Origin: Aminobacter anthyllidis | GTDB lineage: Bacteria; Pseudomonadota; Alphaproteobacteria; Rhizobiales; Rhizobiaceae | NCBI RefSeq assembly: GCF_018555685.1 | Contig: NZ_JAFLWW010000006.1 | Coordinates: 434,001 to 498,000, forward strand | Reading direction: 5' to 3' | DNA length: 64,000 nt | Shown here: piece after piece, positions 59,201 to 60,191 of the stretch | Layout of the letters: each line of letters starts with the position of its first letter | How positions within the stretch are numbered: the first letter of the stretch is position 1 | Program-made: the position numbers and the translations under genes | Notes under the pieces: model-generated | Databases searched by the model: none | What the model saw: only the letters and a program-made list of their open reading frames with translations | What the model was told of the DNA's origin: nothing

Positions 59201-59399
59201 TCACAGGCCAATTCGCATGAATGACGCGTCGGCCCGTTAGCCGGGCTCGATCGCGCGAATTCAAACGTCCAGCGATTCGCAAACGGGGTGATTGCCAGGC
59301 CCCGGGCGCGGATCGCGTTCGTGCGTCTGATGCACGGCTGCTGAAATCGGAATCGATCCTCGCCAGGGCGTGCAAAAATCAAAGCTTGGGAAATGGTGA

Positions 59400-59422
59400 G
59401 GCCCGCCCGTTTCGGGCAGGCC
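59400..59422 (-). terminator. hairpin after the guanidinium exporter gene
   Basis: A 10-bp stem with one mismatch (59400-59409 with 59413-59422), loop of three, 18 bases after the stop. There is no clear T run, so its strength is uncertain. The gap 59201-59440 has no other recognisable feature. Confidence 0.5.
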
Positions 59423-59440
59423 GTTGCAAAGGTTGGCTGA

Positions 59441-59755
59441 TCAGGCGACGAGCTTGAGGCCAACGATGCCCGAGACGATCAGGCCGATGCAGGCGAGGCG
59501 AATCGCTGTCGCCGGCTCGCCGAAAAGCCAGATGCCGAGCATCGCGGTGCCGACGGTGCCGATGCCGGTCCAGATCGCATAGGCGGTGCCGAGGGGCAGC
59601 GACTTCAGCGCCAGACCGAGCAGGCCGAGGCTGATGACCATCGAGGCTACGGTGAGGACGGTCGGCGTCAGCTTCGAAAAGCCGTCCGTATACTTCAGGC
59701 CGATGGCCCAGCCGATCTCGAACAGGCCGGCGAAAAACAGATAAGTCCAAGCCAT
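59441..59755 (-). CDS. sugE: SMR family guanidinium exporter (Gdx/SugE)
   Basis: Four-helix dual-topology exporter, 104 residues. It begins MAWTYLFFAGLFEIGWAIGL with the ion-binding Glu (residue 13), has SLPLGTAYAIWTGIGTVG and ends IGLIVSGIVGLKLVA, all like SugE/Gdx rather than the multidrug EmrE. SugE homologs under guanidine riboswitches export guanidinium in exchange for protons. A guanidine-II riboswitch lies in the leader, so this function is well supported. Start at ATG 59755, TGGAGCG 5 bases before. Confidence 0.93.
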   Translation of the reverse strand: MAWTYLFFAGLFEIGWAIGLKYTDGFSKLTPTVLTVASMVISLGLLGLALKSLPLGTAYAIWTGIGTVGTAMLGIWLFGEPATAIRLACIGLIVSGIVGLKLVA

Positions 59756-59774
59756 GGAACGCTCCATTGGAATG

Positions 59775-59824
59775 GCGGGTCGTCCCAGCCGGTTTTTTTG
59801 GGAGATGCAAGGCCGTCCTTGCAC
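59775..59824 (-). promoter_or_regulatory. guanidine-II (mini-ykkC) riboswitch
   Basis: On the minus strand two hairpins show the hallmark ACGR loops: GCAAGG-ACGG-CCTTGC (59822-59807) and GGG-ACGA-CCC (59786-59777), joined by an A-rich linker of about 20 bases. The second hairpin ends 13 bases before the Shine-Dalgarno sequence of sugE. Guanidine binding to this class frees the ribosome site and turns on guanidine export. Confidence 0.88.
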
Positions 59825-59828
59825 CGGT

Positions 59829-59857
59829 TAGATAGGTTTTTTCAAAGAAAAATTCAA
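59829..59857 (-). promoter_or_regulatory. sigma-70 promoter of the riboswitch-sugE transcript
   Basis: Minus strand: TTGAAT (59857-59852), 17-base spacer, TATCTA (59834-59829). The expected start is at about 59822, the first base of riboswitch hairpin one. Confidence 0.65.
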
Positions 59858-59862
59858 CCATG

Positions 59863-59882
59863 CGCCCGGCCGAAACCGGGCG
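59863..59882 (-). terminator. hairpin downstream of the 41-residue gene
   Basis: CGCCCGG (59863-59869) and CCGGGCG (59876-59882) form a stem. On minus it is followed at some distance by TTTTT and lies 31 bases after the small gene and just before the sugE promoter. Confidence 0.5.
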
Positions 59883-59913
59883 TGGTTGATTGGCGTCTAG
59901 CCAGCCTGAAGGA

Positions 59914-60039
59914 CTACTTGTCCTTGATCTTGATTGCCTGCACCGGAGGCGCCTTGAATGCCGGCGTGGGCGCAGGCTTCTTGGCATCTTTTTTCGGTTT
60001 CCGGGCTTCTTTCCCGGCTTTCATCGCACCCTTGGCCAT
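59914..60039 (-). CDS. 41-residue Lys/Ala/Pro-rich small protein
   Basis: Starts at ATG 60039 and reads MAKGAMKAGKEARKPKKDAK, then a Pro-rich stretch (PAPTPAFKAPP) and ends QAIKIKDK at a TAG. A clear GGGAGAA site stands 8 bases before the ATG. Eleven of the first 21 residues are Lys, Arg or Glu/Asp. It has the look of a small basic, disordered nucleic-acid or protein-binding peptide. I do not recognise a named family; the good ribosome site, the biased composition and the hairpin after it support it as real. Confidence 0.6.
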   Translation of the reverse strand: MAKGAMKAGKEARKPKKDAKKPAPTPAFKAPPVQAIKIKDK

Positions 60040-60191
60040 GATTCGTTTCTCCCGCTGCTGAGACGCGAAGTGAAACGCGAAGTCGCCGCGCTTGCAAGAG
60101 GGGTATTGAGGGCGACGACAACGGCCGTGCCAAGGCGAAAATGCTTGAGTGGGCCAGCGTCCCGGCTACTCTGTTCGAACACGAGGGACAG

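Follow-up and report, generated by a model that had tools for sequence, protein, structure and literature searches.

Which signals control the exporter gene sugE in Aminobacter anthyllidis, and to what kind of guanidinium response do they belong? The question is raised by the region upstream of sugE on the minus strand of a 64,000-nt stretch of this genome (the window in the following), which an earlier note had read as a Guanidine-II riboswitch with its own promoter. Our best explanation, which we consider highly probable as a whole, comprises a Guanidine-II leader, a promoter that would start the transcript at hairpin P1, a predicted switch in front of sugE, and a second element of the same class that is linked to a gene for ATP synthase subunit a (AtpB). 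The window element is a well-supported further instance of the known Guanidine-II class and ordinary in kind. The link to an orphan AtpB, which lies outside the window, deserves follow-up more than the window element itself. The coordinates of the relevant features are compiled in the table.

Table. Features of the sugE leader in the window and of the second riboswitch locus in the same genome (G000)
Feature	Position	Strand	Basis
-35-like hexamer GTTGAA	59858-59853	-	sequence; scored with controls
-10-like hexamer CTATCT, 17-nt spacer, five bases before P1	59835-59830	-	sequence; scored with controls
Guanidine-II riboswitch aptamer, RF01068	59824-59775	-	Rfam 36.0 bits, gathering score 32
Hairpin P1, GTGCAAGG-ACGG-CCTTGCAT	59805..59824, loop ACGG 59816-59813	-	Rfam alignment and comparison
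Hairpin P2, GC-u-GGG-ACGA-CCC-GC, one bulged U	59775..59789, loop ACGA 59783-59780	-	Rfam alignment and comparison
Ribosome site (SD) GGAG, 6 nt before ATG	59765-59762	-	sequence
sugE (gdx-type) SMR exporter, 104 aa	59441..59755, ATG at 59755	-	PF00893, NF008512, 6wk5
Second Guanidine-II	G000:C26:119524-119565		34.1 bits, above cut-off
Second riboswitch with orphan atpB locus	G000:C26:118603-119565		loci L002, L112, L125

The match to RF01068 covers the full model, with an E value of 0.0015 when both strands of the 64 kb are searched. A covariance score had been named in the earlier note as the check to be made, and the element lies above the family threshold; the model has 48 positions and the margin is only 4 bits. 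The two hairpins with ACGG and ACGA loops, initially recognised by inspection, are confirmed in the Rfam alignment, and both loops fit ACGR, which is given as the loop consensus of the class in the accessible part of PMC2864571. Between 59858 and 59441 on the minus strand, the -35 hexamer is followed by 17 bases, the -10 hexamer, five bases, P1, the linker, P2, GGAG and the start codon of sugE. The gene recognised by the SugE model starts 19 nt downstream of the riboswitch, and the leader consists of almost nothing but the riboswitch. The distance of 80 bases within which all elements were said to precede the ribosome site holds when counted from hairpin P1 (about 62 bases) but not from the -35 hexamer (about 97 bases). 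The sole other Rfam match at gathering level in the window is a bacterial small SRP RNA (RF00169, 49635-49731, plus strand, 62.3 bits).

The sugE product scores 97.9 bits against the Pfam SMR family and 134.7 bits against the curated SugE model, for which the cut-off is 126. Its residues 1-102 align without gaps to the solved SMR exporter 6wk5 (E value 1.9e-29), which we take to be Gdx-Clo, and E13, W16, S42, Y59 and W62 are common to both proteins. W16 and S42 presumably are part of the Trp/Ser/Tyr/Trp network of Gdx proteins around the central Glu. E13, Y59 and W62 are named for SMR-Gdx in the text available from PMC10829512. Since the SugE model is passed and the active-site residues are shared with 6wk5, the assignment of Gdx-type motifs to the downstream exporter is borne out. 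By family, the product is a predicted guanidinium/proton antiporter acting in export. The closest named SugE is that of Aminobacter sp. HY435 (91%; records of the window's own genome were possibly excluded).

Of 101 relatives, 36 have a Guanidine-II match with an E value of at most 0.001; in a sample of the order the number is 111 out of 397 genomes. Pooling the matches listed for both sets gave 161 distinct sites, of which 19 score below the gathering threshold, and for each site the downstream gene was sought within 1,800 nt. Gene classes were assigned by tblastn against seven reference proteins from the loci, three of which were checked against Pfam. Among the matches listed, the first gene was sugE at 80 of the 161 pooled sites, a chlorhexidine-type (PACE) transporter of family PF05232 at 30, a DUF1989 protein, which we take to be urea-carboxylase-associated, at 26, an AtpB-like protein at 14 (with sugE next in four cases), and an Amt-like protein and relatives of a 396-aa ORF at two each; at seven sites no recognised gene was found within 1,800 nt.

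Some of the rarer arrangements are described here in their own right. For PACE-linked sites (e.g. L010, L012, L013, L018, L021, L022, L029 and L030) no mention of Guanidine-II together with chlorhexidine/PACE transporters was found in the literature as judged by listing, and the word 'pace' is absent from PMC7736828. Two Aminobacter genomes contain a third Guanidine-II (G005:C1:1807066-1807111 and G006:C2:177470-177513, loci L115 and L118), located about 300 nt before the Amt-like gene, by eye an ammonium transporter. At L008 (G008) and L113 (G002:C66) a Guanidine-II directly precedes the 396-aa membrane-like ORF, whose relative in G002 looks broken off by the neighbouring stretch.

A promoter of the E. 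coli sigma-70 type was rejected for the sugE leader, as a strict scan of 59380-60150 was negative, and the alphaproteobacterial consensus was used instead. The window promoter matches the rhizobial consensus CTTGAC-N17-CTATAT at 9 of 12 positions. For comparison, leaders were scored with CTTGAC-N16-18-CTATAT, requiring the -10 hexamer to end 3-11 nt before P1 and at least 8 of 12 matching positions. All nine Aminobacter sugE leaders reached this score, whereas among their controls it was reached by 10 of 180 shuffles and by none of the 36 windows further upstream. Of the 71 other sugE leaders, one was unscored and 57 of the remaining 70 reached it, versus 10 of 280 upstream windows, as did 26 of 30 PACE leaders, versus 9 of 120; shuffles reached it in 4-6%. 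The -35/-10 pair proposed for the minus strand is therefore a match of rhizobial type that is conserved throughout the nine leaders of the genus, and this conservation supports the predicted transcript start at hairpin P1. A riboswitch at the predicted +1 position seems to be common in the group and not peculiar to the window. Just upstream of the promoter, at 59914-60039 on the minus strand of the window, a lysine-rich ORF of 41 residues (MAKGAMKAGKEARKPKK...) is found, which is nearly unchanged in all nine Aminobacter sugE loci and probably represents a real small protein.

The genome of the window contains two Guanidine-II elements above the cut-off, the second of which was missed in the earlier reading. 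The gene after this second riboswitch encodes an ATP synthase subunit a of 249 residues (PF00119, 210.6 bits; cut-off 33.9). This orphan atpB stands alone on contig C26, without an atpIBEF-type operon. The canonical copy, 60% identical to the orphan, is located on C12, where the translations give the order atpI-B-E-F'-F. In 20 chosen genomes, all 14 with a riboswitch-linked AtpB carry a second copy; five of the other six carry one AtpB copy, and none was found in G008, which is 81% complete. All 14 AtpB-linked riboswitches score above the cut-off. The pair of riboswitch and orphan AtpB is present in eight of the ten Aminobacter genomes, and G003 and G008 have neither.

The stator Arg is kept in all 14 orphans. 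Four residues further on, all 14 have Val, whereas Asn is found in all 16 other AtpB copies compared; we take these two positions to be R210 and N214 in E. coli numbering. Asn was also read at 23 of 24 additional AtpB loci, the remaining one lying outside the search pattern. A single branch, with a support of 99/93, separates the 14 orphans from the rest of a 54-row tree. In four Aminobacter pairs dN/dS is 0.06-0.17 for the orphan and 0.07-0.10 for the canonical gene, which points to purifying selection on the orphan that is somewhat looser than on its canonical counterpart.

The riboswitch in front of AtpB might be incidental, the orphan being an ordinary duplicate that came to lie near a riboswitch through linkage with sugE. 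Such an origin would agree with sugE as the next gene in four of the 14 cases and with the long distance in ten of them, where AtpB starts 174-181 nt (eight Aminobacter genomes) or 225-240 nt (G266 and G353) after P2. In the remaining four genomes, however, AtpB starts only 17-20 nt after P2, and the eight Aminobacter cases have kept the riboswitch with no sugE within the 1,800 nt examined. Because the 14 cases had been found through the riboswitch, the 397-genome sample was also searched for the Val motif independently of it, with a degenerate DNA pattern. The motif was detected in six genomes and is riboswitch-linked in all six; the reversed control pattern gave none in these six genomes among the matches listed. 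Consequently, we regard an incidental neighbourhood as unlikely and prefer a genuine link between the second Guanidine-II and the orphan subunit.

As to the form of this link, the distant start of the orphan in Aminobacter, G266 and G353 counts against a simple translational switch. The orphan atpB of Aminobacter has its own SD-like sequence GGAGAGG. In the eight Aminobacter atpB leaders (L112, L114, L116, L117 and L119-L122) the sequence directly following P2 (ATCCAARAGATGGCGCCG) hardly varies and may contain a leader ORF or another element. At L024 (G027) an atpB-like N-terminal remnant lies between the riboswitch and sugE, and at L028 (G025) there is a shorter and less certain atpB-like start in the same place. 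This suggests that riboswitch-atpB-sugE is the older order and that atpB was lost in places.

An extension of the AtpB link beyond the order was considered and discarded. None of the 27 class-level riboswitch loci classified among the matches listed has AtpB, and in 270 class-level genomes the Val motif occurs only once, in the window's own genome; hence, the link does not seem to extend beyond the order. No report of Guanidine-II together with ATP synthase was found in the literature, mostly judged by listing, and an earlier mention is possible in supplementary gene tables and in the first description of Guanidine-II (Sherlock 2017). The connection of Guanidine-II to an extra ATP synthase subunit a thus looks new.

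Guanidinium is the smallest arginine mimic. According to the accessible part of PMC8873251, the a/c interface of ATP synthase is the proposed site of action of arginine-mimicking inhibitors. Some Na+-driven ATP synthases have genes under the control of Na+-I riboswitches (PMC9971707, accessible part). On the basis of this proposal and this precedent, we put forward that the orphan subunit is swapped into F0 under guanidine stress. The Guanidine-II of Rhizobiales would induce the Val-type subunit a, and the latter would replace the normal stator subunit when guanidinium competes with the stator Arg at the c-ring. Together with Gdx export this would constitute one stress response, with ATP synthase as a natural target of guanidinium. 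We offer this reading tentatively, as a possibility worth pursuing that we would not yet call probable. Two points make it slightly less probable: in our samples the link does not extend beyond one order, and according to the same part of PMC8873251 the a/c interface accommodates only some guanidine-like compounds. A guanidine-induced, guanidinium-tolerant F0 subunit is therefore proposed here and is unproven; alternatively, the orphan could be an inhibitory subunit, a decoupling subunit or a means of proton supply for Gdx. A monophyletic, riboswitch-linked variant of subunit a, sometimes in one gene string with the exporter, is a concrete candidate for the cellular target of guanidinium.

Degradation by urea/guanidine carboxylase was rejected as a route for the genus. 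The urea carboxylase model TIGR02712 gives partial matches in all ten Aminobacter genomes, none of them over the curated cut-off, compared with 1 of 14 control genomes above it. The earlier note had stated that no urea or guanidine carboxylase gene is nearby, and for this curated model the statement holds genome-wide in all ten genomes.

The ligand encountered by Aminobacter in the field has to be considered as well, and strain MD1, which is presumably an Aminobacter, is relevant here. It converts metformin to guanylurea according to the accessible part of PMC9699525, and belongs to the known guanylurea-excreting metformin degraders. In the part of PMC10829512 available, guanylurea is described as carried well by Gdx proteins, and a 30-fold rise of SMR-Gdx in metformin-grown Aminobacter is cited. 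A real aptamer could thus respond in this genus to guanylurea or another compound related to metformin, or to methylguanidine, instead of free guanidinium. Against this, neither loops nor stems depart from the standard of the guanidinium class, and the element is common to relatives across the order, beyond metformin degraders; we judge another field ligand to be improbable and retain guanidinium. The rise in metformin-grown cells also bears on the guanidine link of a rhizobial chromosome that the earlier note had drawn. This link was overstated and is not new, as the rise is cited in PMC10829512 and RF01068 had been tabulated for Mesorhizobium huakuii in 2017 (PMC5596092, accessible part).

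For the hairpins themselves, 80 sugE leaders were compared; after removal of one whose second loop is aberrant, they gave 76 distinct sets. Pairs 1 and 2 are almost invariant. The inner pairs (P1 pairs 3-7 and P2 pair 4) are nearly always kept, and their two-sided changes exceed all 200 shuffles: P1 pair 4 is formed in 75 of the 76 sets versus at most 57 in the shuffles, and P2 pair 4 in all 76 versus at most 52. The outer pair 8 of P1 (42 of 76, up to 44 in shuffles) is unconstrained across sugE leaders, and so are pairs 5 and 6 of P2 (46 of 76 each, up to 46 and 49 in shuffles). The nine Aminobacter hairpin sets alone show too little variation to exceed their own shuffles. The sugE-linked element is kept in nine of the ten Aminobacter genomes, the tenth being 81% complete. 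A false-positive match to chance hairpins, with a sugE free of riboswitch control, would fit the short model, whose margin is not overwhelming on its own, and the unremarkable z-score of the leader fold, but in view of the covariation of inner pairs in front of sugE, this retention in the genus and the frequency of sugE as first recognised gene at the pooled sites of relatives, we treat it as refuted by the comparative data.

We propose the following mechanism. The Guanidine-II riboswitch would form nearly the whole 5' leader of the sugE (gdx) transcript on the Aminobacter chromosome. Transcription would proceed from a promoter of the rhizobial housekeeping type, whose conservation points to a start at or a few bases from P1. 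With rising guanidinium, one ion would be bound per ACGR loop and the two hairpins would kiss, as expected from knowledge of the class. Kissing would free the ribosome site, so that more exporter could be made, and this predicted guanidinium/proton antiporter would remove guanidinium. The predicted response as a whole would combine export with an altered ATP synthase stator, without a carboxylase breakdown route. For the class, a translational ON switch (PMC12186494) and an anti-SD/SD scheme (PMC7544219) are described in the parts of these papers available.

ViennaRNA pairs the SD within a local hairpin both with and without P2, and gives P2 a probability of approximately 0.16-0.35 without ligand. 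Relative to the best fold, pairing of CUCC in the linker with the SD GGAG costs about 9 kcal/mol, and an energy-based proof of switching was abandoned on this account. Plain folding of the leader showed no switch with this program, which cannot model the kissing contact, and for this reason the switch step is one that we infer. The stability of the whole leader fold was discarded as structural evidence, since it is uninformative: the leader is no more stable than its shuffles (z -0.93), of which 38 of 200 folded equally well.

In comparison with the Guanidine-II class (mini-ykkC, RF01068), the window element has the same two ACGR hairpins, the short linker and the position before the ribosome site of an SMR gene. 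Nothing essential differs, and the promoter abuts P1, as in the relatives scored. The RF01068 element of M. huakuii 7653R belongs to the same family and is likewise located on a rhizobial chromosome; in the accessible part of PMC5596092 it is simply an entry in a table of predicted intergenic RNAs, with the downstream product unnamed. The exporter is of the same family as the SMR-Gdx proteins Gdx-Clo (6wk5) and Gdx-pAmi (PMC10829512, accessible part), the shared active-site residues and the ungapped alignment referring to 6wk5. In contrast to Gdx-pAmi, which is encoded on a plasmid according to the same source, the sugE of the window is chromosomal. The Na+-I riboswitches located upstream of ATP synthase genes (PMC9971707, accessible part) likewise represent cation-sensing control of ATP synthase parts, as is proposed here for the second Guanidine-II. 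The latter, however, precedes a lone paralogue of subunit a, belongs to another riboswitch class and would sense an organic cation.
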